A stretch of 64,000 nucleotides of DNA, taken from positions 62,001 through 126,000 of the forward strand of contig JAUHWH010000008.1 in the NCBI GenBank assembly GCA_030424715.1. The letters are read 5' to 3'. Of the stretch, positions 7,956 to 25,318 are shown piece by piece. Position 1 is the stretch's first letter. Each line of letters begins with the position of its first letter. The DNA is from Bdellovibrionia bacterium. GTDB taxonomy: Bacteria > Bdellovibrionota > Bdellovibrionia > Bdellovibrionales > JAGQZY01. The position numbers and the translations under genes were made by a program. The notes beneath the pieces are model-generated. The model worked only from the letters and a program-made list of their open reading frames with translations, was not told the DNA's origin and searched no databases.

Positions 7956-10532
7956 TGAAAACTTCAATCCTAGGTCATGCCCAGCAACAGAGACCTTGCT
8001 GCCTTTACCAATCTCTCCGGCCAAAAGTTTTTTCGACAGCACATTGACGATTTCTTTTTGTATGAGCCGTTTTAGCGGACGAGCTCCAAAGGTCGGATCG
8101 TAGCCTTTTTTAGCTAGATAATTAATGGCCGAGTCTTCTAGTTCGATAGCGATACCCTGCTCCTGCAGGCGGCGAGTCAGTTGCTTCAGTTGGATTCGGA
8201 CAATTCCAGAGATATTGTCTTCGCTTAACTTTTTAAATACCACCCGCTCATCGATTCGGTTTAAGAACTCGGGGCGGAAAAAGTGTCCTAGGTTTTCATC
8301 GATTTTACTCTCAACCTGTTCATCGGTCAGCGCCTCATCCATGATAAACTCGGAGCCCACATTGGATGTCATAATGATAATGGTATTCTTGAAATCTATG
8401 GTTCGCCCCTGCCCATCCGTCAAGCGCCCTTCGTCAAACACTTGCAATAAGACATTGAACACATCGCGATGGGCCTTTTCCACTTCATCCAGTAAAACCA
8501 CGCTGTAGGGACGACGGCGAACCGCTTCTGTGAGTTGCCCCCCCTCATTGTACCCCACATACCCTGGGGGCGCTCCAATCAAACGGGCCACAGAATGTTT
8601 CTCCATATACTCGCTCATGTCGATTCGAATGATATTGTCTTCGCTATCAAACATGAACTCAGCCAAGGCTTTGACGACCTCAGTTTTCCCGACCCCTGTC
8701 GGACCTAAAAAGAGGAAGGCGCCAATGGGTTTGTTTGGGTCGGAGAGTGCGGACCGCGAGCGACGAATGGCATCGGACACCACTTCAAGGGCCTGATCTT
8801 GGCCTACGACTCGTCCAGCAAGGAGTTCTTCCATCTGCAAAAGCTTGTCGCTTTCACTCTTAATCATTTTATCAACCGGTATTCCAGTCCAGCTGGAGAC
8901 CACCTGTGAAATCAGCTCTGGATCGACAATCTCCCGAAGCAACTTATCGTCCGAATCTTTTTCTTCATCTTGAATGGCTTCATCCAGACTGCTTTTTTCT
9001 TTCTCTAAGTTAGGCAGCTCCCCGTACTTCAATTGCGCGGCCCGCTCGAGATCTCCCTCACGCTCCGCTTTTTCGATATTGGCTCGGGTTTCTTCAATTT
9101 TACTTTTAACCTCTTTGAGTCCATCAATACTGAGGCGTTCTTTTTTCCATTGGGTTTCAAGGGTATCAAGCTCCGCCTTAAGGCTGGCCACCTCATCGGC
9201 AATATCTGCCAGACGCTCTGGGTTTTCATTTTCGTTTTTCAAGGCCTGCTCTTCGATTTGAAGTTGCATTATTTTACGCTGAACCTGATCAATTTCGACA
9301 GGAACCGATTTGATCTCCATACTTAGTTTACTGGCGGCCTCATCGATCAGATCAATGGCCTTATCTGGTAGAAAGCGATTGGCGATATAACGATCTGATA
9401 AATGAGCCGCGGCAATCAAAGCTCCATCAGTGATGCGAACACCGTGATGCACCTCATACTTCTCTTTGAGACCTCGTAAAATTGTAACCGTATCGGCGAC
9501 AGTGGGTTCATCGACAAAGACCGTTTGAAAGCGACGCTCGAGGGCCTTGTCTTTCTCGATGTATTCTCGGTATTCATCGAGAGTTGTCGCACCAATACAA
9601 CGCAGCTCACCTCGCGCCAAAGCCGGCTTTAAAAGCTGCCCAGCGTCCATAGCTCCATCAGTTTTTCCGGCGCCGACAAGAGTGTGCAACTCATCGATAA
9701 ACAGAATGACCGAGCCGTTGCTCTCTTGCACTTCTTTGATTACACCTTTCAGTCTTTCTTCGAACTCGCCACGGTATTTAGCCCCGGCGACGAGGGCTCC
9801 CATATCTAAACTTAGAATTTTTTTATCGTTGAGGACTTCGGGGACATCCTTACTAAGAATTCTCAAAGCTAGGCCCTCGGCAATCGCGGTCTTACCGACG
9901 CCGGGCTCTCCAATCAACACAGGGTTGTTTTTCTTGCGACGAGCGAGCACTTGAATCGTACGACGAATCTCATCGTTACGACCGATGACAGGATCAAGAC
10001 GGCCCTGGGCGGCAAGCTCTGTCAGGTCCCGCGTGTACTTTTGTAAAACTTTGTATTCCGCATCGGGATTCTCAGACTGAATCGTCTCACCACCGCGGAG
10101 TTCTGAGTAGGCTTTGTCTAGTTTCTTCTCGTCAATGCCCAATCGCTTGTAGATGCTATTGAGTTCACGGTCTCCCATCTTCAGCGAACAAACAAAAAAG
10201 TGTTCCACCGAAATAAAGCCATCACCCAGTTCTCCCGCATAGCCTTCGCTGAATTTAAATAAGGTTTGCAGTCGAGTGCTTGCCAAAATTTGACTCGGGC
10301 CCGAGGTGACTTTCGGAAAGCCATCGATGCGACTCTTGAGGGCTTTCGACAGCTCGTTGCCGTCGGCGCCAAGAGCTTTAAGCAAATCAGAAATACGGTG
10401 GGTGGAGTCGGTGATGACATGAAACAGCAAATGCTCCGGTTCAACAGACGGATTCTGCAACGATTCGGCCGAACGAGCGGCTTTCTGCATGGTTTGCTTT
10501 GCTGGCACTGTCATTTTTTCTATATCGTTCAT
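7953..10532 (-). CDS. clpB: Chaperone protein ClpB (AAA+ disaggregase)
   Basis: ClpB works with DnaK to pull apart aggregated proteins in the cytoplasm. The layout is complete: an N-terminal Clp repeat domain (about 1-145), first AAA+ domain with [15 protein letters not shown] and [11 protein letters not shown], a long coiled-coil middle domain (about 400-525), second AAA+ domain with [16 protein letters not shown] and LLDEVEKAH, and a C-terminal domain ending [16 protein letters not shown]. The track begins at a GTG, but ATG at 10532 follows a GAGG at proper spacing and gives 859 aa. No CIRCE element is seen upstream. A hairpin-forming inverted repeat lies in the short divergent promoter region. 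Confidence 0.98.
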
Positions 10533-10559
10533 CGACACCTCTTCGCGTTTGACGGATCA

Positions 10560-10580
10560 CCCATCTATCCATAGGATGGG
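10560..10580. promoter_or_regulatory. Inverted repeat between clpB and the divergent gene
   Basis: CCCATCTATCCATAGGATGGG pairs as CCCAT-CTAT / ATAG-(G)-ATGGG with a 2-nt loop and one bulged G. It lies in the 67 bp between two divergent starts, where an operator or an RNA leader hairpin of clpB could sit. The function is inferred only from position. Confidence 0.3.
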
Positions 10581-10599
10581 GCCGATTTCGGAGTTGTCA

Positions 10600-10857
10600 A
10601 TGTCGAAAAGCAGTCAAAACCAAGGGGCTTTCACCCCAAAAAGAATACGGCGAACGATCAAGTTAGATAGGGTCCAGGCCGCAGATTTTCTTAAATACGA
10701 CACGATTTTTGCCTGTGAACAGTGCTCTTTTTTCAACCCCGAAACAACAGAATGCGTGATGGGATTTCCGCCCCAGAACCACTTACTTCGCCAGCAACTG
10801 CATACTTTTAATACCACCGGGCATATGGCTTTCTGCCGATTTCTCGAGATCGATTGA
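10600..10857 (+). CDS. Small Cys-rich protein, possible metal-binding
   Basis: The predicted 85-aa protein carries CEQCSFFNPETTEC and a later FC near the end (HMAFCRFLEID). Four cysteines are thus arranged like a zinc or iron-sulfur site. The track begins at 10489 inside clpB. An ATG at 10600 is preceded by GGAG at 6 nt, a better choice than the ATG at 10576. The last codon overlaps the next gene's ATG by one base (TGATG), so the two are translationally coupled. I do not recognise the family and assign no function. Confidence 0.7.
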   Translation: MSKSSQNQGAFTPKRIRRTIKLDRVQAADFLKYDTIFACEQCSFFNPETTECVMGFPPQNHLLRQQLHTFNTTGHMAFCRFLEID

Positions 10858-11765
10858 TGGGTGTCGAGACCACAGTCGCTCTTTTGACCCTCTTTTTGGT
10901 GTTGGGAGTCGTCCTACTCATTGTCTTTCTATATATAAAGACAAGCGAAGAAACCGCAGCTGAGGGTTCCTATTTTGAAAGCGAAAAGGGGCCCATTTAT
11001 TACGAGCTACAAGGTAAAAAGGGCCCTTGGGTCGTGCTTATCCACGGCCTCGGATCTTCTACCTATGGGTGGCGGTATCTCGTCGACTCTTTAAAAGACG
11101 ACTATCGAGTTCTCACCTTCGACCTGTGGGGCTTTGGGCGCAGCTCGAAAGAAAACTACAGGTCCATAAACCTTGATTCGCAGGTCGCAGTGATTGAAGC
11201 TCTGATCACGTTTCTCAATATCGAAAGCTATCACGTGATCGGACACTCCATGGGCGGAGAGATTGCTCTGTGGATGTCTTTAAACGACTCACGGGTGGAA
11301 AAGTGCATCGCCATCACACCAGCGGCCAACCCGCGCTTGATTTCAGACAGTCTCAGAGCCTTTTCATGGCTGGCCCACTTGACGCCTCTGGTGTTAAAAT
11401 CCCAGGCGATCCGTCGGATCCTCCTCCACAACATCCACGATGCCTCCTTTATCACAGATGAGATGGTTCAAAACTACTATCAACCCTACACCAACCCCAA
11501 TGCGCATCGTTGTTTTGTGGCTGCCCTCAATATTATCAAAGACCAAAGAGTCTTTGATTCACTCAAAGACCTTGACGACCAGGTCACCTTAATCTGGGCT
11601 CAGCGAGACAAGGTCATTCGATCGAGAACACGCAAGGCCATTAACAGTAAAGTGTCCGGCCCCACCATACTCACCCACCCTTGGTCGGGGCATTTGTTAA
11701 TGGAAGACGATCACCTTTGGCTAGCTCAACAGGTTTTATTGACGCTAAAAAACCAAAAAGGCTAG
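10857..11765 (+). CDS. Membrane-anchored alpha/beta hydrolase
   Basis: The 302-aa protein has an N-terminal transmembrane helix (VALLTLFLVLGVVLLIVFLYI) and then an alpha/beta hydrolase fold. VVLIHGLGSSTYGWRYL is the HG oxyanion motif, VIGHSMGGEIAL the nucleophile elbow with catalytic Ser, a likely Asp lies in IWAQRDKVI, and a His in HPWSGHLL. This is the pattern of lipases, esterases and epoxide hydrolases of the fold; the substrate is unknown. ATG at 10857 overlaps the previous stop; the track's TTG is one codon earlier. No clear terminator follows. Confidence 0.85.
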   Translation: MGVETTVALLTLFLVLGVVLLIVFLYIKTSEETAAEGSYFESEKGPIYYELQGKKGPWVVLIHGLGSSTYGWRYLVDSLKDDYRVLTFDLWGFGRSSKENYRSINLDSQVAVIEALITFLNIESYHVIGHSMGGEIALWMSLNDSRVEKCIAITPAANPRLISDSLRAFSWLAHLTPLVLKSQAIRRILLHNIHDASFITDEMVQNYYQPYTNPNAHRCFVAALNIIKDQRVFDSLKDLDDQVTLIWAQRDKVIRSRTRKAINSKVSGPTILTHPWSGHLLMEDDHLWLAQQVLLTLKNQKG

Positions 11766-11893
11766 GTATGGACGATTGTCACGTTCACTTTTTGTTATCG
11801 AAAAGCTCGACCTAACAACTGATTTCAATACGATCATCCTAAGACCTCAATCCAGAAAATCACCTGAAAGTCCTATTCAGGACTGACGTCTTG

Positions 11894-11920
11894 TCAAGAG
11901 TCCGACGCATTTCCCGAAAG
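11894..11920 (+). promoter_or_regulatory. Possible FliA (sigma-28) promoter of flagellin gene
   Basis: TCAAGAGT, 11 nt, then CCCGAAAG. Against the consensus TAAAGTTT-N11-GCCGATAA this matches 5 of 8 in each box with exact spacing, about 55 bp before the flagellin ATG. It is a weaker match than the two other FliA-like sites in the window, but it sits where a flagellin promoter is expected. Confidence 0.35.
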
Positions 11921-11975
11921 GTGTGTTGTCTAGTTTGAATAGATTTATTTTTTAAAAAAAACGGGAGGAAAAATT

Positions 11976-12809
11976 ATGTCTATGAGAGTTGCAACGAATA
12001 TGTCGGCGATTAACGCCCATCGTACCATGCAAGGAAACAACCGCGCGATCGCTAAAAGTTTTGAAAAACTTTCTAGCGGAAGCCGAATCAACAGAGCCGC
12101 GGATGATGCTGCGGGACTCGCCATTTCTGAAGGATTGAAAGCGCAGATTCGTTCTGCTGGTCAAGCCAAAAGAAACTCGAATGATGCGATCTCTTTGATC
12201 CAAACCGCTGAAGGTGGATTGAACGAAATCGGTAACATGGTTGTTCGATTGAGAGAGTTAGGAATCCAAGCGGCTTCTGACACTGTTGGCGCGGATGAGC
12301 GTGGTTTCATCAACGCTGAGGTCAACCAACTTAAAGAAGAAATGCAGCGTGTGGCTGACTCCACGAAATGGGGAACAACCAACCTCTTGGATGGTTCAAC
12401 ACCTGTTTTCGACTTTCAAGTGGGAACTTTCAACAACGACTCTGCTGATCGTATCAGCTGGGACGGATCAACCAACGTGGCAACACTCGACTCTTTAGGA
12501 CTAACCGGTCTCGATTTTACAAACAAAATCGGTGCCCAAACAGGACTTGAGGAATTAGATGCTGCACAAACTGAGGTGAACAGAATTCGCGCCAACATCG
12601 GTGCTGTTCAAAACCGCTTAACGAACACGGTTTCTAACTTAGCCAGCATGGAAGAGAACCTTTCTGCCGCTAATAGCCGAATTCGCGACACGGATATCGC
12701 CGCAGAATCTGCAGAGTTGACTAAAAACCAAATATTAATGCAGGCAAATACGGCAACATTGGCCCAGGCCAACCAGAAAAACAGCTTAGCACTACAGCTA
12801 CTCGGATAA
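11976..12809 (+). CDS. fliC: Flagellin
   Basis: This is a structural subunit of the flagellar filament, exported by the flagellar type III system. The 277-aa protein has the conserved D0/D1 helices at both ends: N-terminal MSMRVATNMSAINAHR, LSSGSRINRAADDAAGLAIS and NDAISLIQTAEGGLNEI; C-terminal NLASMEENLSAANSRIRDTDIAAESAEL and ANQKNSLALQLLG. The variable middle is short (about 140-190), so the subunit is small. A strong GGGAGGA precedes the ATG. A strong terminator follows, so it is a single-gene transcript. No other flagellar genes are nearby. Confidence 0.97.
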   Translation: MSMRVATNMSAINAHRTMQGNNRAIAKSFEKLSSGSRINRAADDAAGLAISEGLKAQIRSAGQAKRNSNDAISLIQTAEGGLNEIGNMVVRLRELGIQAASDTVGADERGFINAEVNQLKEEMQRVADSTKWGTTNLLDGSTPVFDFQVGTFNNDSADRISWDGSTNVATLDSLGLTGLDFTNKIGAQTGLEELDAAQTEVNRIRANIGAVQNRLTNTVSNLASMEENLSAANSRIRDTDIAAESAELTKNQILMQANTATLAQANQKNSLALQLLG

Positions 12810-12825
12810 ACTTTACTGCCCGTTT

Positions 12826-12858
12826 CAGGAGGGATCATGGGGGTCCCTTCTGTTTTTT
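12826..12858 (+). terminator. Rho-independent terminator of flagellin gene
   Basis: An 11-bp stem (CAGGAGGGATC / GGTCCCTTCTG, two G-U pairs) with a 5-nt loop, followed by six T. Confidence 0.9.
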
Positions 12859-13013
12859 CGACCGGGAAAATGCGAAGACTTGTACTATTTTTGACCCCAT
12901 TTTTTAAGCCCTCGGTCTGTTAAGGGCGCGTTAAATCCATTTCCTTTTGACAATCACAGCCACCTATCGAAAATAAGCTCTTCTAAGATGATTTTTCCTT
13001 GGGGGAATTTGCT

Positions 13014-13844
13014 ATGGCGAAAAAGAAAAAAGCAAAAAAAACAGCTCGAAAAAAGGTGACCAAAAAAAAGGCACTATCACGTTCGAAAACTGCCAAAAAA
13101 GCAAAAAAGAAAAGCTCCAAAAAAGTGACCAAAAAGACCAAAAAGACCAAAAAAACGGCTGCTGCGAAGAAGTCTAAGAAAAAGGCTACGAAAAAGAAGG
13201 CTGCTAAAAAGACCAAAAAGAAAGTCGCAAAAAAGAAAGCCACGAAAAAGGCTAAGAAAACCACCAAAAAGAAAACGACTAAAAAAGCCAAAAAGAAAGC
13301 CGCTAAAAAGAAGACGGTGAAAAAGGCGACTAAAAAAGCCAAAAAGAAAGTCGCAAAGAAAAAGCCCACGAAAAAGAAAACCGTTAAGAAGGTCACTAAA
13401 GCCGCAAAAAAGGTGACTAAAAAGGCGACTCCAAAGAAGACTGCCAAGAAAGCTCCAGCAAAAAAACCAGCCTCTGAAGTGGCCAAGGCTAACAATGAAG
13501 CGGTAAAAGCTCTTAAAAAACCTGAAGTCCCCTCTTTCGAAGATATTATCGCTGGTGGAGGCGCAGAAGGACCAATCACCGGGACTAACCCGTTCAAGGT
13601 TGAAGATAAGAAAGGTTCTCAAGGGGACTTTTTCGACAATGAAGATGATTTGGGTGACGACATGGAAGATCTGCGTGGCGACATGGACAGCCTTGGGACT
13701 TCCGTCGGTTCGAACGACATCGCCGAAGCCGAAGAGGAAGAAGCCGAAGACGACGACCTGTTTGACGACCCCGAGCTCAACCCTTTCGACGATCTCGATG
13801 ACGACAACGACTTCGACGAAGACGACGAAGGCAGCTACTTCTAG
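13014..13844 (+). CDS. Lysine-rich histone H1-like protein with acidic C-terminal tail
   Basis: The 276-aa protein has two opposite halves. Residues 1-155 are almost only Lys, Ala, Thr and Val in repeats such as KKATKKAKK, like the tails of eukaryotic histone H1 and bacterial H1-like nucleoid proteins. Residues 175-276 are strongly acidic (EEEEAEDDDLFDDPELNPFDDLDDDNDFDEDDE). The basic part should bind DNA; the acidic tail could regulate that binding or recruit partners. The track starts at a TTG at 12999, but ATG at 13014 follows GGGGGAA. The ORFs on the opposite strand here are artefacts of the low-complexity sequence. Confidence 0.85.
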   Translation: MAKKKKAKKTARKKVTKKKALSRSKTAKKAKKKSSKKVTKKTKKTKKTAAAKKSKKKATKKKAAKKTKKKVAKKKATKKAKKTTKKKTTKKAKKKAAKKKTVKKATKKAKKKVAKKKPTKKKTVKKVTKAAKKVTKKATPKKTAKKAPAKKPASEVAKANNEAVKALKKPEVPSFEDIIAGGGAEGPITGTNPFKVEDKKGSQGDFFDNEDDLGDDMEDLRGDMDSLGTSVGSNDIAEAEEEEAEDDDLFDDPELNPFDDLDDDNDFDEDDEGSYF

Positions 13845-14220
13845 GGACAATGGGTTTTGCCTGTGACGGCCTGAGAACTCCCCGGCGAGGATCGCTAGCA
13901 GATAGTCGATGATCAGCTCCTACAGCGGCGCTGATCGTCGCTCCTTGGTGATTTAAATCCCCCAAAAAGAGACACCTGCCATCCCATCTGGCCTCAATAT
14001 GGCGAGAGCCTGTGAATCCAAGCCCTCAAGAAAAAGGTCCCTAGCTCCCAAAGATTTTTTGAACCTTTGCACCCATCATAAAACCGCGCCTGATTGAATC
14101 GAGGGCGATTCTCCTCACACAGACCGGTTGGGCGAGTTCTATTTTTTAGTTTTCGAATCAACAGCCTTGTCCTGACCATGGCTTTTTGCTAGATCGAAGG
14201 TTCACGCAAGGAGCTGAGGG
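13845..14220. other. 376-bp intergenic region with a long inverted repeat
   Basis: No convincing gene is seen. The short minus-strand ORFs here lack ribosome binding sites and look random in composition. The region contains an 11-bp inverted repeat (annotated separately). The last 20 bp carry the AGGAG site for the next gene. Confidence 0.5.
13907..13940. repeat. Inverted repeat forming an 11-bp hairpin
   Basis: CGATGATCAGC and GCTGATCGTCG are separated by 12 nt and pair along 11 positions with one G-T. No T-run follows, so a simple terminator is unlikely on the plus strand. It may be an operator or an RNA structure. Confidence 0.5.
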
Positions 14221-14520
14221 ATGAAACTAATCGCTTTAATTGGACTGCTAAGCCTGTCGACGACCACTTTTGCCGGATATTTATCCTGCAATAACATCGA
14301 CTCGGTCTGGCCCCAAGACACCCTGGAGTTCGCCCCAGAAGGCACAACCACCTACGCCTACTACTTTGATACCGAAAGTCACTACAGCCTGGCTTGCGAA
14401 GTCACAAAGGGTGATGGCTATCAATGTGAAGGCAGTGGCTTAGAAGTTCGACTTTACGAAACGGGCGAGGCCTTTGTTTCTAACGGTGTGGATTCTGACG
14501 TCGCCTTTCAATGCCACTGA
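14221..14520 (+). CDS. Small secreted protein with four cysteines
   Basis: The 99-aa product starts with a clear signal peptide (MKLIALIGLLSLSTTTFAG). The mature part has four cysteines (LSCNN, LACEV, YQCEG, FQCH), which could form two disulfide bonds in the periplasm or outside the cell. A good AGGAG lies upstream and a terminator follows directly, so it is a single-gene unit. I do not recognise the family. Confidence 0.75.
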   Translation: MKLIALIGLLSLSTTTFAGYLSCNNIDSVWPQDTLEFAPEGTTTYAYYFDTESHYSLACEVTKGDGYQCEGSGLEVRLYETGEAFVSNGVDSDVAFQCH

Positions 14521-14551
14521 TGGAAGACCTCTGGTTTAATACCTCAGGGGC

Positions 14552-14579
14552 AAAAAAAAAGAGCCCGAAAGCTCTTTTT
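14552..14579. terminator. Bidirectional rho-independent terminator
   Basis: AAAAAGAGC CCGAAA GCTCTTTTT: a GC-containing stem with A-run and T-run on either side. It lies between the convergent ends of the small secreted protein gene and the sigma-54 activator gene and can serve both. Confidence 0.85.
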
Positions 14580-14603
14580 CTATTTCAATAATAATGGATT
14601 CGG

Positions 14604-15635
14604 CTAGGCCTTTTTCGGCTTGCTGTGAATAGCAAACTTCTCGAACTCTCCGTACTCATGCAACTTGTTATACAACGTCTTAATTGTAATTCCTAAGGCA
14701 TTGGCTGCTTGAGTTTTGTTTCCTTCAAAGTAGTTCAATGCCTTAATGATATGACGTTTTTCAAGCTCATAGAGAGTCATGGAGGGATCATATTCATCCA
14801 TGGAAATGCGATTCTCTGGATTAACTATAGAGTTTGGCAGGTCACTGGCCAAAATAATTTCTCCATCGGCAAGAATCTGCAATCTCTCACAAAGGTTTTG
14901 CAATTCACGAATATTCCCTGGCCAATCATATTTCATGATAATGGACATGGCCTCATCACTCATCGTGCGACCTCGGTTTAAGATGCGGCTCGTGCTTTTT
15001 GCCAAGAAGTGCTCAACCAAAAGCGGGATGTCCTCTTTGCGACGACGCAAAGGGGGAGAATGAACAGTGATGGTGTTGATGCGATAATAAAGATCTTCTC
15101 GGAAGGTCCCTTTCATCACTTCGGCATCAAGTTCGCGGTTGGTTGCAGAAATTAAACGAATGTCGACTTTGATGGGCTCTTTACCACCCACTCGGTAGAC
15201 TTCGCCTTCTTGAATAAAGCGCAAAAGTTTGGCCTGCATGCCTGGGCTTAACTCACCGATCTCATCGAGAAAGAGTGTTCCACCTGAGGCCATCTCGGCT
15301 AAACCAATTTTCTTTGCATAGGCGCCAGTGAAGGCTCCTTTTTCGTGACCAAAAAGCTCGCTTTCAAGCAAAGTCTCGCGAAGAGCTCCACAGTTGATAG
15401 CGACAAAAGGCTTGTCACGACGCTGACTTTTAGAGTGAATGGCGTGAGCCAAAAGCTCTTTACCGGTGCCACTCTCACCGAGAACAAGAACGGAAGCATT
15501 GCTTGGAGCGACTCGATCCACCATTCTCATGACCTGTTTCATAAGGTCTGATTTGTGAATCACCTTGTTTCCGGCTAGAATTGGATTCGAGGCACCACCC
15601 GTGATGGAGCTACCTGGAAAAGTGTTGTTTGACAT
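14604..15635 (-). CDS. Sigma-54-dependent transcriptional activator without receiver domain
   Basis: After a 30-residue N-terminal tail the 343-aa protein is an AAA+ enhancer-binding domain with Walker A GESGTGKE, intact sigma-54 contact loop [18 protein letters not shown] (Walker B), and a Fis-type HTH ([23 protein letters not shown]). With no receiver or sensor domain it resembles PspF-type activators, which are controlled by partner proteins. The track start at 15866 runs into the Xer gene. ATG at 15635 follows AAGGTGG and begins [11 protein letters not shown] perfect palindrome upstream may be its own operator or that of the divergent gene. Confidence 0.92.
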
Positions 15636-15660
15636 ACGTACCACCTTATTAGTTGCGTAT

Positions 15661-15675
15661 TGATACAATGTATCA
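15661..15675. promoter_or_regulatory. Perfect palindrome TGATACA-A-TGTATCA, putative operator
   Basis: A 7-1-7 perfect palindrome lies in the 58-bp gap between the divergent sigma-54 activator and recombinase genes, where promoters of both must be. This is typical of a dimeric repressor site; the regulator is unknown. Confidence 0.45.
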
Positions 15676-15693
15676 TTTTGACACGGAGTATAA

Positions 15694-16698
15694 GTGCGGC
15701 GCGTAAAAAATGCAAGAAAAAATTCAAAAAAGTGCACTTTTTCCAATGAGAACGAAATCAGGGGCACTTCAAGGCCTCTGAATCTCCCCGAAATGCTCTG
15801 CAAGTATTTGGAATTCAATGATTTCCAAAGAAATCTTTCACCCCACACTCTTCGTGCGTATAGCACAGATGTACTGCAAGTTTTTCAACTCCACAATCTT
15901 TGTTTTGTCTCAGGCCCCAAATTAGACGGATTTGAGCATTATTCTTGGAGATCAGAAGGTTCTCCAATGATATCAAATACTTGTGGAAAATGGGCTGAAA
16001 TTGCCCTCAATAAAATGAGAACTTGGGAAAATTTGAGCATCAAGGCCCGCAAAAGAAAGATCAGTAGCCTCAACAGCTTTTGCGAATGGCTGAGCACCTA
16101 TCAGAAAATCCAACTTCAGATCCCCATCGAAGCCCCCAGCGATCGCGCTCGTAAGCTTCCTAATTTTATTTCCGTGGATGAGGTCCATAGCCTGATTCAG
16201 TACCTCTCCAGCGCTCCTGACAGCCCTATTAAAACTCAACAAGAATTGCTCTTTCTCCTCCTTTATGGTCTGGGCCTGCGGCTGTCTGAGGCTTGTGAGG
16301 CTCGAACTTCAAACCTCTCGCTGATGGCCAACACCCTAAAGGTTATGGGAAAAGGGAGCAAAGAACGACTGACCATCTTGCCTGTACCGGTGACTGTGAG
16401 ACTTGGATCGCTGCCCCTTGGTGAGCCTTTTCTGTTTGGAGACAAGCCTCTCCCCACCCGCACGGCCTATAAAAGGATCAGAGACTTGGGAGCGGCCGCT
16501 GGTTTGCTCAAGCCCATTCATCCCCATGCCCTTCGGCACAGCTATGCCACCCACCTACTCACCAGTGGCTCCGATCTGCGGGTTTTACAACAGCTGTTGG
16601 GCCACCAAAGTTTAGCCGCCACCGAACTCTACACCCATTTGGATCAAGATCATTTAGCGAACACTCTAGAGAGCCACCATCCCTTGTCGAAGAAATGA
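15694..16698 (+). CDS. Tyrosine recombinase of the XerC/XerD type
   Basis: The protein cuts and rejoins DNA through a phosphotyrosine; XerC/D members resolve chromosome dimers at dif. In the 334-aa frame the SAM-like N-terminal domain spans about 34-135 ([14 protein letters not shown]). The catalytic domain has the full set: Arg196 (LRLSE), the KGSKER lysine region (220-224), HPHALRH (His278, Arg281), GHQSL (His304) and nucleophile Tyr313. The GTG at 15694 has a GGAG 6 nt upstream. An ATG at 15793 is an alternative and would drop a poor-quality 33-residue extension. No integrase neighbours or att sites are visible, so a housekeeping Xer role is more likely than a mobile element. Confidence 0.88.
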
Positions 16699-16779
16699 TC
16701 GACACTCTTCAATGCTGAGCGCAGCAGTTGCCAGAGCCCCAAGGGTGGGTTAGCAATCAAGTCACCGAACGAGGAAGCA

Positions 16780-17325
16780 ATGAGAAAAGTGGTTTTTTTT
16801 GATCGAGATGGAACACTTATATACGATAAAATTTATCTCAACGACCCCCAACAAATTGAATACTTGCCGGGCGTAAACGAAGGCTTGAGGTTACTGCGTG
16901 ACCAAGGGTTTGAGTTCGTCGTCGTTACAAACCAATCCGGGGTGCCTCGGGGTCTGGTTGACGTGGAAAACCTTAATGAGATTCACCGAATCATACGTTC
17001 CGATTTCGCCGCCGCTGGGATTGATATTTTAGGCTTTTACTACGCGCCTTTTTTGGTGGAGTCAGGACACCCCATGCGAAAGCCTGGCCCAGGCATGCTG
17101 GAAGCCGGCATTAAAGATTTTAATATTGATCGCCAGACGTCTTGGATGGTGGGTGACCGTATGACCGATGTGGAGGCCGGCCACCGTGCCCAGGTGAAAA
17201 GTGTTTTTCTGCATGGGACGGAAGACCCAGAAAACTCTGAGTTTGCCCCTGCCGAATACTACTCCCACACATTTCTCGACCTCAGCCAATACATTTGCGA
17301 GCAAGATCAAAAACGCAATTCGTAA
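16780..17325 (+). CDS. HAD-family phosphatase, GmhB/HisB-N type
   Basis: The 181-aa HAD-IIIA phosphatase has DRDGTL (motif I, Asp nucleophile and acid), VVTNQSG (motif II) and RKPGPGML plus MVGDRMTDVEAG (motifs III/IV). This is the D-glycero-D-manno-heptose 1,7-bisphosphate phosphatase / HisB N-terminal group. The zinc-binding loop of true GmhB (C-x-H ... C-x-C before RKP) is absent; the sequence there is FLVESGHPMRKP, without cysteines. The substrate is therefore uncertain, though a sugar phosphate for LPS heptose is plausible. GAGGAAG precedes the ATG. Confidence 0.85.
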   Translation: MRKVVFFDRDGTLIYDKIYLNDPQQIEYLPGVNEGLRLLRDQGFEFVVVTNQSGVPRGLVDVENLNEIHRIIRSDFAAAGIDILGFYYAPFLVESGHPMRKPGPGMLEAGIKDFNIDRQTSWMVGDRMTDVEAGHRAQVKSVFLHGTEDPENSEFAPAEYYSHTFLDLSQYICEQDQKRNS

Positions 17326-17437
17326 AAGCCCTTTCTAAAATTAAAGAGCGTCATAAATTGAGACTTTAAATTGTTACCCGTCGTGCTTGTGTTTTAAAAA
17401 AAGCACGTCTCGTATTGGTGCAAATGGTGGTTTTTCT

Positions 17438-17464
17438 TTAAGTTCCCAAGCCAAAAGCCGATAA
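17438..17464 (+). promoter_or_regulatory. Strong FliA (sigma-28) promoter match before FecR gene
   Basis: TTAAGTTC, exactly 11 nt, then GCCGATAA. The -10 box is a perfect match to the enterobacterial flagellar consensus and the -35 matches 6 of 8. It ends 35 bp before the FecR gene start. The upstream HAD gene ends at 17325, so the site is intergenic. Confidence 0.6.
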
Positions 17465-17499
17465 ATCTTCTATAGAATAACTCTAAATTCGAGGAGCCT

Positions 17500-18780
17500 A
17501 TGGTTCGTTTAATGATCATCTTCGCCGCCTTTATGTTCTGTACCCAATCTTACGCCGCCGATTGCGGACTTTTTAAGGTTGTTAAAGGTAAAGTGAGTTT
17601 TAAGAAGAACGGGAAAAACAAATTCCGTAAGGCCACAAAAAATAAAAAGGTCTGCCAAGGTGCTACCGTCAAAACGGAAGCCGCCTCGCGCGCCAAGATC
17701 ATTATGGCAGACAAAAACGAAATCAATATCTCTCCAAACACTGAACTTGTCATTGAAGTCTACCAAACCGATCAGAAAGCTGTTCTTAATGTGATCAACG
17801 GTAAGGTTCGCTCCAACGTTAAACGAAAGTATCAAGACAGTAATGCCAGTCATTATCGCGTGAAGACCAAGTCGGCGGTGGCCGGGGTTCGTGGTACCGA
17901 ATTTATGGCAAGCTACAATGCCCAGACCAACCAAGCCCGCGTCGTAACCTTTGAAGGGGAAGTGGCCGTTGGACAAATGCAAGGCAACAACTTTGTGGCC
18001 ACTGTGACTGTTAAACCCGGTCAGTTCACTTCGAACTCACCAGGACAACCGCCCCACCCCGCTAAAGAAGTGCCGCCTCAAGAGCTGGCGCAAATGGATC
18101 AAGAGACCAACCTTGGTGAACCTTCTGGCGCGGGTGATAAACAACCAGCCAGCACCAACCAAGATTCGAACTCCGACGATGCCGGTGATTCAAAAGACGG
18201 CCCCGCAGCCGATGAACCCGCCGGAAAAGATGACGCCGCCGGTGATTCCGCAGGGCAAGACGATGCTGCCGGTGACAAACCAAAAAGTAACGACGGAGTC
18301 TCTGGTGAGAAAGGTGGCGATTCCGCCGCCGATCAAGCCGGCGAGCCTGACAACAATCAAAAAGATGCGGGCGGCTCGGGAGCCAATCCATCGGATACCA
18401 ATGGCGAACAACGGAAACCCGCATCAAAGCCGGCCCCCGCTCCTGGTCCAGATGACGGAGCCAGACCAACTGACCCAACTGACCCAGGTCCCTCACCTCG
18501 GAAACCTACACCAGGACCTAGAACTCCAGCACCAGGACCTAGAACTCCAGCACCAGGACCTGGAGCTCCTGGCCCCGATACTCCTCCGACAGATCCTCTT
18601 CCGCCACCAGATTTACCAAAAGGACCGATGCCCGGGGGGCCACCTCTTCCTCCCACGGTTTTTTTGCCGCCGGACGTGAGTGATATCACTAATGTGTGTG
18701 GAGCCGCTTGTAACGATGCTGTGATCAATAACAATCAAAAGGTTAAGGTCATTATCAATACGATTCTCCCGGGCCAGTGA
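17500..18780 (+). CDS. Secreted FecR-domain protein with Pro/Gly-rich tail
   Basis: The 426-aa protein has a signal peptide (MVRLMIIFAAFMFCTQSYAAD) and a FecR domain at about 22-180: KVSFKKNGK, GATVKTEAASRAKI, INISPNTELVIE, then TKSAVAGVRGTEFMA and VTFEGEVAV. A long disordered region follows, first acidic/Ala-rich repeats (DDAAGDSAGQDDAAGDK) and then Pro-rich repeats (PGPRTPA). It ends in a short conserved-looking tail with two Cys (VCGAACNDAV). FecR domains of this exported kind often occur with outer membrane proteins; here the next gene encodes one. GAGGAG precedes the start, a FliA-like promoter lies upstream, and a strong terminator follows. Confidence 0.88.
   Translation: MVRLMIIFAAFMFCTQSYAADCGLFKVVKGKVSFKKNGKNKFRKATKNKKVCQGATVKTEAASRAKIIMADKNEINISPNTELVIEVYQTDQKAVLNVINGKVRSNVKRKYQDSNASHYRVKTKSAVAGVRGTEFMASYNAQTNQARVVTFEGEVAVGQMQGNNFVATVTVKPGQFTSNSPGQPPHPAKEVPPQELAQMDQETNLGEPSGAGDKQPASTNQDSNSDDAGDSKDGPAADEPAGKDDAAGDSAGQDDAAGDKPKSNDGVSGEKGGDSAADQAGEPDNNQKDAGGSGANPSDTNGEQRKPASKPAPAPGPDDGARPTDPTDPGPSPRKPTPGPRTPAPGPRTPAPGPGAPGPDTPPTDPLPPPDLPKGPMPGGPPLPPTVFLPPDVSDITNVCGAACNDAVINNNQKVKVIINTILPGQ
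18511..18573 (+). repeat. 21-bp tandem repeat inside FecR gene
   Basis: Three copies of a 21-bp unit beginning CCAGGACCTAGAACTCC; the first two are identical and the third diverged. They encode PGPRTPA repeats in the Pro-rich region. Copy number could vary by slippage without a frame change. Confidence 0.8.
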
Positions 18781-18806
18781 GTTTGCTTGCCCTACCTTTG
18801 GAAAAT

Positions 18807-18836
18807 AAAAGCCAAGACCTTTGTCTTGGCTTTTTT
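18807..18836 (+). terminator. Rho-independent terminator of FecR gene
   Basis: GCCAAGAC CTTT GTCTTGGC, extended by A-T pairs and ended by six T. Confidence 0.93.
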
Positions 18837-18893
18837 CGTTTTTCAATACCCCAAACCCTAGCCCCGTCCTTTGCCCAATCCGGGGGGCAAGCG

Positions 18894-18922
18894 TTGTCAT
18901 AACTTACTGAAGCCTTTAGACT
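18894..18922 (+). promoter_or_regulatory. Putative housekeeping promoter of the TPR/barrel gene
   Basis: TTGTCA, 17 nt, TAGACT: 5 of 6 and 4 of 6 matches to the sigma-70 boxes at ideal spacing, about 30 bp before the ATG. Together with the terminator just upstream it suggests independent transcription from the FecR gene. Confidence 0.4.
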
Positions 18923-18953
18923 ATTCTCATAGTTTTCAAGAAGGACAACTGAG

Positions 18954-21083
18954 ATGAAACAACTTGTTATGATGGCGATTCTATTGAGTCTCGGCTCACA
19001 AGCATGGGCCCAAAAAAATCGCTTCAAAGTCTACAAAAGAAATAGCACCGAACGTGCGGTCATTAAAAACTCAAGACCTCTTGCCGTCTACTACGAGAAA
19101 GTGTCCTGGAACGAAAACCCCACAGCCATTGAATCAGGCTATATGTATTTACGAGACAACCAGTCAGGCGAGCTCACTGAACTGCTTTTGCATGAGACAA
19201 AGCCCGACTCCGGAGTCTTTAGTACACAATTCCCCATCGGCGCCCTAAAGCAGGCGCGCATCGCCACCGAGATTTATTCAGCACCGCCCTCTATGCTGGT
19301 TAAAGGCAACCGACTTGAGTTAATGAAGACTTTTATTGAAGATGGCTCGATCAAGCGAAAACCCTTTTTACTAAGAGTTTTACGAAACAAAGGTCAGGTT
19401 ATCGATATCTTTGACACCAAAGGCCAGGCTCTGACCGCCTACGAAGAGTTCAAAACCCAGTTGGGCCTCGCTGCCGATGGTACCGAAAGCCAAAGTATTA
19501 TTGAAATCGCCAACCAAAAAGGAGCGATCAAGACAAAAGCGGTGGATTCTTCGACTCTGCAGTCTCTGTTTATGGCCAATGAGAGCGGGCAACAGGCAAC
19601 CAACGAGAAAAATGCCGAACTCCGCGAAGTCTTATTGAACATTGAAAAAAAGCGCCGTGCAAAAGTCAAAGCCGAGGAAAAAGTTTGGCCTGCTAGTTTA
19701 GAAAAGGCCAACGAAAAGAAAGCGGTGGACACAGTCAAAAGTGCGGTTACCAAGCTCACCGCTGGAGAACTAGAAGGTTCAATGAATGAGTTTTTAGAGG
19801 CCTCGAACCTCAACCCTTCTGAAGAAGACTTTTATCAACAGTATGGGGTCAGTCTGTTTCGCAACAAAAACTTCAATCAAGCCATTGTGGTCCTACAAAA
19901 CTCTAGTCCCTCGAAAAACCGACTGGCTGAGAAAGACTTTTATATCGCAATGTCTTTCTTTCAACTGAAAGACTACCCCAATGCCGTAGAATACTTTGAT
20001 AAGGTGATTCAATCGGGCAACGCTTCTTTTGGCCCGACCTCGGCTTTCTACAAAGGATCAGCCCTTATCGAGTTGCAAGAGTTCGATAAAGCCAAAGAAG
20101 CTTTTCAATATGTCTTGGACAATTCGAAAGACCCAAAACTAGATCAACAGGCCGAAAAATACATTGAATACTCTTTAGATAGAAAAGCCTTGGCTGAAAA
20201 GCAATCCAACTGGTTTTTCTTGGATGGGGTGCTCGGTCTTATCTATGACTCCAATATTATCTTGGCAGACGACCAACTGTTGGGGCGTGGTGACATCACC
20301 AATGAAAACGGCTGGCGCTTTCTAGCCCAAGTGACACCAAAGTTCCGCCCCTATTACTCTGAGAAAAATGAAATCAATATTGCCCTGAACCTCACCACCA
20401 TGAAGAGTTTCACTGATGGCTTTGCCACCAACGCTCGGGCGGAGACGGCCGACCCTCTACTACTGGGCTTGAGTGTTCCATGGACTCACCGAACCACTAT
20501 AGGGGGCAAGGGATACTTTTTTGACCTGGCTCCTGGGTACGACTCTATTATTATGGATTTGGACGGCACAGGTGCTGCCACCATCACCAACTCGACGAAG
20601 CTGGACTTTCGTAACACATGGATCATTAACAAAAACTGGATCGCCAAGGGTGATTTAAGCCTGAGCTCCAATGATGCCAATATTTTAGGAGACGAGACAA
20701 GTGCCGATGCCTTCGGTACAGCCTTGCGACTTTCCAGTATTTTTATCCTCAACAAAGATCTTGAGCGTTACCTGATCCCTGACATCGGATACCGAATCAA
20801 CGCCGCCGAGGCTTCGACATTTGCTTTCAATCGGATCGATTTTGGACTCACCTACACCTCATCCATCTTTGACTCGTTTATGTGGAACAACCGTATCGCT
20901 TATTTTTTAGCAAACTACGAAAGCAATCGGACCGACAACAACTACACTCTTTCGTCGGGCGTCTCTAAAAGAATCAACAGTCATTGGAACTGGGGCCTTA
21001 TGGCCACCTACACGATCAACAACTCGACGACAAATCAGTATGACAAATACAATTTTGTGTCGACCTTTTCGTTTTCTTATTAA
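18954..21083 (+). CDS. Outer membrane protein with TPR repeats and C-terminal beta-barrel
   Basis: The 709-aa protein has a signal peptide (MKQLVMMAILLSLGSQAWAQ), an N-terminal beta-rich domain (to about 130, with ETKPDSGVFSTQF), a charged helical linker, TPR repeats (about 265-405: SEEDFYQQYGVSLFRNKNFNQAI and following), and a C-terminal part of about 290 residues with alternating strands. The last residues are YNFVSTFSFSY, an aromatic end typical of outer membrane barrels. TPR plus barrel resembles porin-like assembly factors, but no exact family is recognised. It follows the FecR protein and may work with it at the outer membrane. The end overlaps the convergent recO stop by 4 nt. Confidence 0.8.
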   Translation: MKQLVMMAILLSLGSQAWAQKNRFKVYKRNSTERAVIKNSRPLAVYYEKVSWNENPTAIESGYMYLRDNQSGELTELLLHETKPDSGVFSTQFPIGALKQARIATEIYSAPPSMLVKGNRLELMKTFIEDGSIKRKPFLLRVLRNKGQVIDIFDTKGQALTAYEEFKTQLGLAADGTESQSIIEIANQKGAIKTKAVDSSTLQSLFMANESGQQATNEKNAELREVLLNIEKKRRAKVKAEEKVWPASLEKANEKKAVDTVKSAVTKLTAGELEGSMNEFLEASNLNPSEEDFYQQYGVSLFRNKNFNQAIVVLQNSSPSKNRLAEKDFYIAMSFFQLKDYPNAVEYFDKVIQSGNASFGPTSAFYKGSALIELQEFDKAKEAFQYVLDNSKDPKLDQQAEKYIEYSLDRKALAEKQSNWFFLDGVLGLIYDSNIILADDQLLGRGDITNENGWRFLAQVTPKFRPYYSEKNEINIALNLTTMKSFTDGFATNARAETADPLLLGLSVPWTHRTTIGGKGYFFDLAPGYDSIIMDLDGTGAATITNSTKLDFRNTWIINKNWIAKGDLSLSSNDANILGDETSADAFGTALRLSSIFILNKDLERYLIPDIGYRINAAEASTFAFNRIDFGLTYTSSIFDSFMWNNRIAYFLANYESNRTDNNYTLSSGVSKRINSHWNWGLMATYTINNSTTNQYDKYNFVSTFSFSY

Positions 21084-21676
21084 AGACGTTCTTCCCGGAT
21101 GCTGATGTCGCTCTCTCTGAGTCGACGGCGAGTGAGCTGAGCCAAATAGGTGTGCTCGTCCGGGGTCAACTCGATTTGACGATGCAAGTGAATGGGCTTG
21201 GCGACAAACTCGGCGACATCGTCATCAAGACCTAAAAAGCCCAAATAGTACAAATACTTTAACTCGAACTGTAGCTTTAAGGTTTGAGGAGCATCGGTCA
21301 CCTCAAGTGCTCTTAAAGTATTGCCCAATAAGTCAAACAAGCGCTTGTTATCGGGCAAGCCCTCGTAGGTGGCTTTCGAAATCAGTTTTAAAAAATGAAA
21401 GGATAACTCTAGTTTTTTATAGTCATCACGCAGACCGCTGAAGGGGTAGATAACCTTAGCCTCTTGTACATAGAGGTAGCCCGATTTTGCTTCGGTGTAA
21501 GAGATCTCAACAAAATTCAGCGGCTCTAAAACCCCACCACTAAAGCGTCTCTTGCTCATCAACGCATTCTTGGCGGTAAAAACCAGGCGCTCCCCCTCTT
21601 TACTTAAAGCATCGATAATAAGGTCGGCATCTTTAAACGGCTTGGCGCGAAGATTGATAAACCTACCAGACGGCAT
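21080..21676 (-). CDS. recO: RecO-like DNA repair protein
   Basis: RecO helps load RecA at gaps through RecFOR. The N-terminal OB-fold pattern is visible: RAKPFKDADLIIDALSKEGERLVFTAKNAL, RFSGGVLEPLNFVEISY, followed by a helical region. At 198 aa it is shorter than the usual 230-250 aa, and the zinc cysteines found in many RecO proteins are missing. The track start is a TTG at 21697. ATG at 21676 (MPSGRFINL) fits the family better and leaves a 14-nt overlap with mgtE, on the same strand. Confidence 0.7.
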   Translation of the reverse strand: MPSGRFINLRAKPFKDADLIIDALSKEGERLVFTAKNALMSKRRFSGGVLEPLNFVEISYTEAKSGYLYVQEAKVIYPFSGLRDDYKKLELSFHFLKLISKATYEGLPDNKRLFDLLGNTLRALEVTDAPQTLKLQFELKYLYYLGFLGLDDDVAEFVAKPIHLHRQIELTPDEHTYLAQLTRRRLRESDISIREERL

Positions 21677-23003
21677 AGTAGAACACCAAAATTCCAATGG
21701 CCGACATATTAGAAAGAATCATGGAAACCGAAGGACCCGAGACAATCGGATCAAAATTGAGACGTCTTATAAAAAGAGGGACGCCCATGGAAACCAAAAC
21801 CGTTGCTAACATCTGCAGAGCCAACACACCACTGAGAACAAGGGGAATATTAATGGAGGATTGAGTGAGTAAGGTTCCGGCTAGAAACAAGAGGCTTATT
21901 AACAGAGACAGGCTCAGCCCAATGAATAGCTCTTTCTTGAGATCCGACCAAGATTTCAGCGTCGAGGTGGCATGACGCCGGAGCAGCCCCACCAGCATCG
22001 TGACCGTCTGGCTACTTAATGTGGAGACCACAAAAAAGACCAAAGGCATTAGACAAATAGCCGACACCAACACGGCATCAATTTCAAAGGGCTTTAACGA
22101 GGTCCAAAGTAAAAAGAAGCACAACAGCCCACCGCCACCAGCCATTAGAAGCCAAGGCAAGCGTGCCTTAATGTGAGTCCAATAAGACTCGTCAAGGTCG
22201 GCTCCCCCCATCCCCATGGCATGGATGTCTTCATTGGCTTCTTCTCTGATAACGTCAATCACATCATCTACGGTAATGACACCCACCAAATCGTTATTGT
22301 CGTCGATCACTGGCAAAGATAAGAAATCGTATTTCTCGACCACTCGAGCCACTTCGTTTTGATCCGTTGAGATATCCACCGAAATCACGTCTGTCGACAT
22401 GATGTCTTTCAAGAAATCTTGCGGACGGGACAAAAGAAGTTGTTTTAAACTCAAAACACCCACCAGGCGTTGTGAGTCGTTAATCACGTAGATATAAAAA
22501 GAAATGAGGTCTTCATCCATACTCTGAATGGTCTCGATGGACTCTCGCACAGTAAGGCTCTCACTGATGGTGAGAAACTCAGAGCTCATCAAACCACCCG
22601 CCGAATCCTCGGGGTAACTCATTAGCTCTTCGACCTCTTGCAACTCGTCTCGATTAAGTCCCCTTAGGGCTTGCTGTGAGAGCTCTTCTGGCAGGTGTCC
22701 GAGTAGATCAGCGGCATCATCACTATCCATAAACCCAAGCAGCTGTTGCAATTTGCTGATTTCAAAAATATGAGCGATCTCGAGCTGAAACTTTTTGTTC
22801 AAATGGCTTAAGATATTGGCTTGTCGTTCTGGGTCAGGGATCAACTGAAAGACGGAGATTCGGCCTTCAGTATCAAAAACCTCGAGCACGCTGGCCACGT
22901 CGGCGTCATGCGCTTTGTTGAGAATTCGACGAATGTTTCTCTCAGCCCCTCGACGATGCAACTTGGTGATACTCGTGGCCAATAATTTTGTCTTCTGATC
23001 CAA
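21663..23003 (-). CDS. mgtE: Magnesium transporter MgtE
   Basis: MgtE is a Mg2+ channel in the inner membrane, gated by cytoplasmic Mg2+. The 446-aa protein has the MgtE N domain (about 30-135), two CBS domains (about 140-260: MSSEFLTISESLTVRESIE, MSTDVISVDISTDQNEVARVV) and a C-terminal membrane part with about five helices, including PLVFFVVSTLSSQTVTMLVGLLR, where the pore lies. It starts with TTG preceded by GAGG, 1 nt after the flippase-like gene stop, so the three minus-strand genes form an operon. Confidence 0.95.
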   Translation of the reverse strand: MDQKTKLLATSITKLHRRGAERNIRRILNKAHDADVASVLEVFDTEGRISVFQLIPDPERQANILSHLNKKFQLEIAHIFEISKLQQLLGFMDSDDAADLLGHLPEELSQQALRGLNRDELQEVEELMSYPEDSAGGLMSSEFLTISESLTVRESIETIQSMDEDLISFYIYVINDSQRLVGVLSLKQLLLSRPQDFLKDIMSTDVISVDISTDQNEVARVVEKYDFLSLPVIDDNNDLVGVITVDDVIDVIREEANEDIHAMGMGGADLDESYWTHIKARLPWLLMAGGGGLLCFFLLWTSLKPFEIDAVLVSAICLMPLVFFVVSTLSSQTVTMLVGLLRRHATSTLKSWSDLKKELFIGLSLSLLISLLFLAGTLLTQSSINIPLVLSGVLALQMLATVLVSMGVPLFIRRLNFDPIVSGPSVSMILSNMSAIGILVFYYAVW

Positions 23004-23004
23004 A

Positions 23005-23958
23005 TCAAACCTCTTTCTTTTTGTATAACACGAAGACCAGGCCTCCGAGAAGCCCCACTAAGAACTGGACGGCTTGAAAGAAAGTGATTACCAAAACACC
23101 AAACTCCCCGTTTCCGGAGACCTTCTCAAACAAGTAATAGAAGGCCATCTGTCCAACCCCGACCCCGGCGGGGGAAATGGGCAAGATCGTTGCCAAAAAA
23201 CCAAAGGGGAACACCAACAAAAGAACCCAAACGGGAATGTTGACGTCGAGAAAAAAGATAAGAAAGCCACCCATCCCGATAAGAATCCCCTGGGAACACA
23301 AGCTCAACAAGAAAGGCACTAGCATTTGCCTGGGCTTTTGAAAAAAGAAGAACAAGGGGTGCAAAACTTTCTCGAGCAGAGGGTGCGAGCGCAACAGTTG
23401 GTCGATTCTTTTTTTGGGGCTTAAAATCAACAAGGCCAACAACACAGCAAAGCCTGTCAGAATACCAACACTGAGTGTGAAAAAACTGGCCTGCAACAGG
23501 GGCGATAGCTCGTCGTGAAACAGAATCCCAGTGATTCCCGAATAGAGCAAAAGAGCCATCATGCCAAAGATACGGTCCACCAAAATACTCCAGCCAATGA
23601 ACCACTTTTTTTGCTTTTGGTCTCGCATCAGGTACCCTGCCTTGACGACGTCTCCCCCAACCCCACCAGGCATAAAGAAGTTGAAAAATATACCCACCAA
23701 AGACAACCGAACGGTTTCTAAGAAGCTGACAGAGACGTTCTCGAAGCGCAAAAGCACCTGCCACCTGCGACTGTTGATAAGCACCATGATGAGAAAGAGG
23801 AGACAACCACTCCCCCACACCAGGGGTGAGTTGATCTTGTTGAGTGCCTTTAAATCGAAGCGTCCCGATTGTATCAGCCAATAGATTAACCCACCGGCCA
23901 AAGAGAGCTTTATTACCGGCATCAGCCATTGCTTCAGAAGATTTTTCTTGATAACCAT
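23005..23958 (-). CDS. Flippase-like integral membrane protein (UPF0104 / LPG synthase TM family)
   Basis: The 317-aa protein has about eight membrane helices and the family signature FFNFFMPGGVGGDVVKAGYLMR plus SILVDRIFGMMALLL. Members share the fold of the membrane domain of MprF and AglD and are thought to move lipids or lipid-linked sugars across the membrane. It is the first gene of the flippase-mgtE-recO operon, with AAGGA before the ATG. The divergent neighbour ugd makes UDP-glucuronate, so a role in envelope polysaccharide or lipid modification is possible but only inferred. Confidence 0.85.
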   Translation of the reverse strand: MVIKKNLLKQWLMPVIKLSLAGGLIYWLIQSGRFDLKALNKINSPLVWGSGCLLFLIMVLINSRRWQVLLRFENVSVSFLETVRLSLVGIFFNFFMPGGVGGDVVKAGYLMRDQKQKKWFIGWSILVDRIFGMMALLLYSGITGILFHDELSPLLQASFFTLSVGILTGFAVLLALLILSPKKRIDQLLRSHPLLEKVLHPLFFFFQKPRQMLVPFLLSLCSQGILIGMGGFLIFFLDVNIPVWVLLLVFPFGFLATILPISPAGVGVGQMAFYYLFEKVSGNGEFGVLVITFFQAVQFLVGLLGGLVFVLYKKKEV

Positions 23959-24007
23959 ATTCCTTAGTTTCTAAACTTTTGAGTGGACTCTTGCCAAGGT
24001 AAAGATT

Positions 24008-25318
24008 ATGGAAATTGCAGTTGTTGGAACCGGTTACGTTGGACTCGTTGCTGGAGTGTGTTTTGCTGATGTGGGTCATAATGTGACCTGTGTCGACAAC
24101 AACCCTGAAAAGATCAACGCCCTTAATGATGGCAAGATCCCCATTTTTGAGCCAGGCCTTGAGGACATCATTCGCTCTGCCAAGAGCCGTCTCACTTTCA
24201 CACTCGATCTGAAGCAGGCCCTGGATAACTCTGAGGTGGTTTTTATCGCCGTAGGAACACCGGAGACCGCCGATGGCAGTGCCGACCTGGGCCCCACCTT
24301 TAGTGTGCTCGAGGGCATTTGTAAGGCCGCCAAAGAGCCTAAAATTATCGTGCTCAAAAGCACAGTCCCTGTTGGCACCAGCAAGAAGGTGCAACAGTAC
24401 ATCGATGAAAATAGTGATTTTTCCCATGAGGTTGTGAACAATCCTGAGTTCCTCAAAGAGGGCGCAGCGATCGATGACTTCTTGCGTCCCGATCGAGTGG
24501 TGATAGGTTGTAAAACGGAGCACGCTGAAAAAGTGATGAGTGAAATCTACGGACCTTTCGTTCGCAACGGTCACCCCATCTTGTTTATGTCCAATACGGC
24601 AGCGGAACTGACCAAATACGCCGCCAACTCTTTTCTCTCTGTAAAGATCAGCTTCGCTAACGAGCTCGCCGCTCTGGCTGACAAAGTGGGTGCGGATATC
24701 GACGAGGTCCGTGCTGGCTTCACTTCAGATGGTCGAATCAATCCTTCTTTCTTTTACCCTGGTTCTGGTTACGGTGGCAGCTGCTTTCCGAAAGATGTGC
24801 AGGCTCTCATCCACACGGCCGAAGAGGCGGGCACCACCATGAACATCGTGAAAGCCGCCGACGCCGTCAATGATAAGCAAAAGACCATTATTGTGGATAA
24901 GGTAATGGCTCGCTACCCAGACGTGAAAGGTAAGACTTTTGCACTTTGGGGATTGGCTTTCAAACCACGCACCGATGACGTCCGAGAAGCACCGGCCCAC
25001 TACGTGATCAAAAAGCTCACCGAAGCTGGCGCCAAAATAGTAGCCTACGACCCCATCGCCACTGAAACGGCCCGCAATCACTTTAAAACGGATTTTACCA
25101 TTGCCGACTCCCCTATTGCGGCCTGTGAAAATGCCGACGCTCTTTTGATCGTTACTGAATGGAACGAGTTTCGAAACCCCGATTTCGAAGCGCTTGCAAA
25201 AAAACTAAAAGAACGGGTTATTTTTGATGGTCGAAATGCCCTCAACCCCGACGATGTCAAAAGGCATGAGTTTGAGTACCACTGCGTGGGTCGTCAATCT
25301 CTGTTCAGTGAGGTTTAA
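24008..25318 (+). CDS. ugd: UDP-glucose 6-dehydrogenase
   Basis: Ugd oxidises UDP-glucose twice with NAD+ to UDP-glucuronate. The 436-aa protein has the Rossmann motif GTGYVGLVAGVCFADVGHNV, VGTPE, STVPVGTS, NPEFLKEG, and the catalytic-Cys motif PGSGYGGSCFPKDVQAL. The C-terminal UDP-binding domain has WGLAFKPRTDDVREAPA. It is directly followed, with no gap, by the decarboxylase that uses its product, so the two form one pathway operon. Confidence 0.97.
   Translation: MEIAVVGTGYVGLVAGVCFADVGHNVTCVDNNPEKINALNDGKIPIFEPGLEDIIRSAKSRLTFTLDLKQALDNSEVVFIAVGTPETADGSADLGPTFSVLEGICKAAKEPKIIVLKSTVPVGTSKKVQQYIDENSDFSHEVVNNPEFLKEGAAIDDFLRPDRVVIGCKTEHAEKVMSEIYGPFVRNGHPILFMSNTAAELTKYAANSFLSVKISFANELAALADKVGADIDEVRAGFTSDGRINPSFFYPGSGYGGSCFPKDVQALIHTAEEAGTTMNIVKAADAVNDKQKTIIVDKVMARYPDVKGKTFALWGLAFKPRTDDVREAPAHYVIKKLTEAGAKIVAYDPIATETARNHFKTDFTIADSPIAACENADALLIVTEWNEFRNPDFEALAKKLKERVIFDGRNALNPDDVKRHEFEYHCVGRQSLFSEV

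Follow-up and report, generated by a model that had tools for sequence, protein, structure and literature searches.

The element at positions 17438-17464 (+ strand) of the window, the 64,000-nt stretch of a Bdellovibrionia bacterium analysed here, is probably a genuine FliA promoter that would place a secreted FecR-domain envelope protein in the motile stage of the cell. It consists of a -35 element, TTAAGTTC (17438..17445), an 11-nt spacer (17446..17456), and a -10 element, GCCGATAA (17457..17464), which agrees with the consensus at all 8 of 8 positions; the -35 element matches the E. coli consensus TAAAGTTT at 6/8 positions and the Bdellovibrio consensus TTAAG at 5/5. Judging from the -10 element, transcription would start at 17470..17473, ahead of a GAGGAG ribosome binding site (17491..17496), and 35 nt lie between the end of the promoter at 17464 and the FecR ATG at 17500. 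The -35/-10 spacing and the position ahead of the gene start are both those of a FliA promoter, so that the core of a sequence-only reading of this DNA—a near-perfect FliA promoter before a FecR-domain gene, with a full-consensus -10 lying 11 nt after the -35—held in motif, spacing, strand, and distance. When the window was scanned with up to three mismatches allowed, this was the zero-mismatch site, and the single further match (two mismatches) fell at 59356-59381. A search for a sigma-70-type site ahead of the FecR gene found none, and no Rfam families were found in the window.

Genome-wide statistics, obtained by pattern searches of the whole assembly (3.13 Mb in 18 contigs), show that this arrangement is enriched ahead of ORFs. 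The exact pattern TAAGTT-N12-GCCGATA occurs three times, where base composition predicts ~0.1, and each copy stands directly ahead of a same-strand ORF; these ORFs encode the FecR protein, a hybrid histidine kinase (window 59419), and a 236-aa protein (contig C15). For the looser AAGTT-Nx-CCGATA, there are 13 matches at N13—the FliA spacing—versus 4, 3, and 1 at N11, N12, and N14, and 7/13 of the N13 matches were judged to lie ahead of an ORF start and outside a large ORF, versus 0/8 of the others (Fisher one-sided p = 0.015). Two results count against the FliA reading: none of the three exact matches precedes a flagellar gene, and the organism's own flagellin promoters are poorer matches to the consensus than the FecR promoter. 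The flagellin gene at 11976..12809 (+), for example, has a weak FliA-like site, TCAAGAGTCCGACGCATTTCCCGAAAGG, at 11894-11921. As separate observations, the weak FliA-like sites of two own flagellin genes (L195 and L196) have the stretch CCGAAAGGTGTGTTGTC in common, and the site at 59355-59381, TTAAGTTTATCATCAAAAAGCCGATAG, has an exact FliA-like core and lies 38 nt ahead of the hybrid histidine kinase gene, which includes a receiver domain (59419-61845).

The sequence-only reading had proposed searching for the same motif upstream of orthologues, and there it was found. Homologues of the FecR protein are present in 30/40 related genomes, the homologue-bearing records being nearly all Bdellovibrionales, and most carry [TC]AAGTT-N13/14-CCGATA or CCGAAA ~20-60 nt 5' of the start codon. 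Scored with the published hexamers, 20/29 other genomes reached at least 10/13, versus 2 for the reversed motif; the 29 upstreams from other genomes gave a Fisher combined p of 8e-14 against shuffles, though such p-values overstate independence because the homologues are related by descent. A second, larger set for testing, drawn from 80 named loci, supplied 43 new (held-out) upstreams, in which CCGATA and CCGAAA were again among the top hexamers. Pooling the sets gave 78 distinct FecR upstreams from Bdellovibrionales, of which 27 scored at least 11/13, versus 0.7 for shuffled sequences and 1 when the motif was reversed; at a threshold of 10/13 the count rose to 46, versus 4.4 shuffled. The excess was absent upstream of the adjacent TPR gene (49 upstreams), HAD (32), c21080 (27), MgtE, flippase, and UDP-glucose dehydrogenase genes, and the DNA flanking the conserved hexamers has strongly diverged among homologues. 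Consensus matches do arise randomly, and looser versions of the pattern gave sizeable control counts; a chance match without function is nonetheless very improbable, being contradicted by the conservation and specificity in homologues and by an exact match at the correct place. Judged on these sequence comparisons, the element is not a product of chance.

Conservation has its gaps and variants. The motif is missing from the Bdellovibrio-genus homologues L062, L064, L066, and L173, as well as from L071 and L044, and no FliA-like site was seen in G003 and a few others among the homologue upstreams. The FecR-TPR pair lies outside the conserved neighbourhood described below in G003 and in two genomes of the genus Bdellovibrio, G028 and G017. 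The genome itself encodes a second FecR-TPR pair (C8:99960-100805, L112), ~40% identical and without a FliA-like site. The distance from TTAAG to CCGATA is N15 in the window and in a same-genus relative and N16 in most other homologues, the spacer one base longer than that of the window being commoner in other families (37 versus 9). A spacer shift as a genus trait was considered and dropped; we make no such claim because the same-genus genome G001 carries both spacings. Separately, an ACGT ~17-25 nt 5' of the FecR start recurs in relatives (L045, L057, L061, and L065, for example) and is absent from the window.

The genome, which falls within the Bdellovibrionales, encodes the sigma factor expected to read such a site (FliA, 267.9 bits; C17:45313-45987), and FliA was found above cut-off in 37/40 genomes searched. 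In B. bacteriovorus, FliA is essential (PMC5430801) and acts as the global, or master, attack-phase sigma factor, with targets that include many non-flagellar envelope genes and surface proteins (PMC3627812, PMC5430801). Its motif, TTAAG-N16-CCGATA, is present at 92/140 mapped attack-phase promoters (PMC3627812), and promoters with a FliA motif tend toward greater strength in attack phase (PMC12622784). Here and in most of the related genomes, the gene next to fliA, in divergent orientation, encodes a second sigma factor (72 bits against the FliA model). This FliA-related protein could share promoters with FliA; that the site is read by a different sigma factor of this kind we regard as improbable, given that Bdellovibrio flagellin and pilus-locus (TAD) promoters are activated in E. 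coli by Bdellovibrio FliA itself (PMC5430801). The divergent pair of sigma genes occupies C17:44626-45987 in the genome studied here. The promoter before the FecR gene resembles the B. bacteriovorus attack-phase promoters in its TTAAG and CCGATA hexamers, in having an envelope gene as target, and in the presence of FliA in the genome; it differs in having N15 rather than N16 between the hexamers, and the FecR homologue of the genus Bdellovibrio differs in having no motif. To our knowledge, the FecR gene has not been reported as a target among the attack-phase promoters of B. bacteriovorus, and none of the papers searched joins Bdellovibrio with ‘FecR domain’.

The gene behind the promoter (17500..18780, +) encodes a 426-aa secreted FecR-domain protein with a signal peptide, a beta domain (~21-180), and a long Gly/Asp/Pro-rich tail. 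The match to PF04773 scores 59.8 bits against a cut-off of 24, and the beta domain is confidently predicted (pLDDT 89.6), its best matches among solved structures being the periplasmic domains of FecR-type anti-sigma factors. The predicted fold resembles the periplasmic signalling domains of FecR and PupR (PDB 4m0n, 6ovk; TM ~0.55, E 1e-6 to 1e-5), but unlike those proteins, the window protein has a signal peptide and a long disordered tail and lacks a cytoplasmic anti-sigma part or membrane helix. Checked against the FecI-FecR-FecA type, the 426-aa protein showed neither an N-terminal anti-sigma domain nor a membrane helix, and the eight nearby proteins scanned included no ECF sigma factor or TonB receptor. 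The protein is not of the FecI-FecR iron-signalling type, which makes its FecR label misleading. The nearest NCBIfam models are those of the Leptospira surface proteins Lsa33, Lsa19, and LipL45, which are also secreted FecR-domain proteins, though the window protein scores far below their curated cut-offs. A hairpin with a 12-pair stem resembling an intrinsic terminator (18807..18834, +) probably ends the FecR transcript.

These results bear on the view in the sequence-only reading that flagellar sigma control is unexpected for the FecR family, which we could not uphold. Because B. bacteriovorus FliA drives many non-flagellar envelope genes, FliA control of this gene is what one would expect and no anomaly, and the argument from family fails since the protein has a FecR fold but is secreted and paired with an outer-membrane barrel, and is no iron-signalling regulator. 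Given both this and the non-flagellar attack-phase role of FliA, we infer that the protein is linked to the motile attack phase as a whole, flagellin being a neighbour conserved at the locus.

The partner gene (18954..21083, +) encodes 709 aa comprising a signal peptide, a beta domain, ~6 TPRs, and a 14-strand outer-membrane barrel. The predicted barrel resembles OmpG, and the architecture of TPRs followed by a 14-strand barrel is like that of BcsC, PelB, and SLAM type proteins; the top Foldseek matches include BcsC, OmpG, and PelBC, although whole-chain TM is only ~0.3. The Slam TPR model gave weak matches in three partner-family members, and a query of the genome contigs with the TPR protein gave no match. 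No FliA site of its own was found at the partner gene, which is preceded by a sigma-70-like site, TTGTCA-17-TAGACT (18894..18922, +), that matches the consensus at 9/12 positions and is proposed from this match alone. The terminator-like hairpin separates the two genes, which are probably regulated separately, since the TPR gene shows no excess of FliA sites. They travel as a pair, occurring together in 18/20 loci examined (exceptions L106 and L111). The gene order ClpB, hydrolase, flagellin, sigma-54 regulator, Xer recombinase, HAD, FecR, TPR barrel, MgtE (window 7953-25318; in relatives, L285-L299) is largely common across several families, and the FecR-TPR locus often includes a flagellin gene as part of this neighbourhood in many families. 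Beside the flagellin gene of the window lies a gene for a Lys/Ala-rich, histone-H1-like protein with an acidic C-terminus ending in DEDDEGSYF (12999-13844); at L068 and L165, the gene directly 5' of FecR has an acidic end like this one.

A second element accompanies the promoter. GTCTCA was noticed by eye shortly before hexamers on either strand were counted in 27 FecR upstreams, where it proved the most enriched word (16/27 versus 2.8). It was also the top hexamer of the held-out set (20/43 versus 3.9), and in the pooled upstreams it occurs in 36/78, versus 6.2 in shuffled sequences, with no excess at neighbouring genes. Its position peaks ~16 and ~7 nt 5' of the -35, as fits the two halves of a 15-bp dyad, GTCTCA-N3-TGAGAC, centred 11-14 nt 5' of the -35; FecR upstreams hold mostly single half-sites, and degenerate dyads recur. 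Nearly always with a 3-base centre, the dyad occurs 21-24 times per genome in two Bdellovibrio-genus genomes, versus 1-3 for a reversed control, and its enrichment is weak in the organism's own genus (4 versus 2; 5 versus 5). Among copies with a 3-base centre, 27/38 lie outside ORFs of at least 120 aa, versus 12-15% of random positions, and many of the dyad loci (L199-L254) stand, as judged by reading, ahead of genes with signal or lipoprotein peptides. No gene families recurring downstream of dyads across genomes were found by blastp. We rejected the idea of an operator near fliA, because the exact dyad ahead of fliA in G028 falls within the coding sequence that precedes it, and the genome studied here offers no good counterpart. 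A few dyad copies do sit in terminator-like hairpins, but a hairpin or terminator in general was also rejected, an equally good inverted repeat (the reversed control) being far rarer (1-3 versus 21-24); we prefer a specific binding site because of that scarcity and because FecR upstreams mostly hold single half-sites.

On these sequence patterns, the enrichment suggests a second, putative regulator. We give close to an even chance to the reading that the FliA site is real and acts jointly with such a regulator at the GTCTCA/TGAGAC half-sites just 5' of the -35, FliA alone giving little expression. The enrichment that recurred in held-out upstreams and spared neighbouring genes speaks for it, as do the recurrent degenerate dyads and the retention of GTCTCA at L062 and L173, which have lost the FliA site. 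There is a precedent in the sigma-28 promoter of E. coli aer, which has CRP at -49.5 (PMC2859248). Many of the FecR homologues likewise have a palindromic site directly 5' of the -35, though a different palindrome, GTCTCA-N3-TGAGAC. Set against this, the window elements are weaker and farther from the -35—GTCATAAATTGAGAC (17350..17364) matches the dyad at 10/12 positions, and GTCTCGTATTGGTGC (17407..17421), a weak 8/12 match, is centred 24 nt before the -35—and no protein is known to bind GTCTCA/TGAGAC. We know of no description of the GTCTCA-N3-TGAGAC motif, and a text search of papers returned nothing usable on it. That the Bdellovibrionales FecR-TPR envelope module is under joint control of FliA and an undescribed regulator binding this dyad is a tentative proposal, one we would put somewhat short of even.

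As the preferred account, then, sigma-28 (FliA) bound at 17438-17464 would transcribe a single gene, from a start near 17471 to the terminator at 18807-18834. The FecR-domain protein would work with the adjacent TPR/outer-membrane-barrel protein, probably as its exported or periplasmic partner. Because FliA drives the attack-phase promoters of B. bacteriovorus, the protein probably appears together with flagella in the motile, prey-seeking stage, provided that the organism does, as we infer, pass through an attack phase. The FecR promoter is a well-conserved addition to a known type of regulon and extends a known pattern rather than establishing a new one; what is new as a lead is the GTCTCA dyad. 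Comparative evidence from several families indicates that the expanded FliA regulon of B. bacteriovorus reaches through the Bdellovibrionales, taking in FecR-TPR as a conserved envelope module. The second operator motif could lead to a further regulator acting on envelope genes within the order. If joint control is real, the protein that binds the dyad would control envelope genes alongside FliA, perhaps covering some of the attack-phase promoters without a FliA motif.
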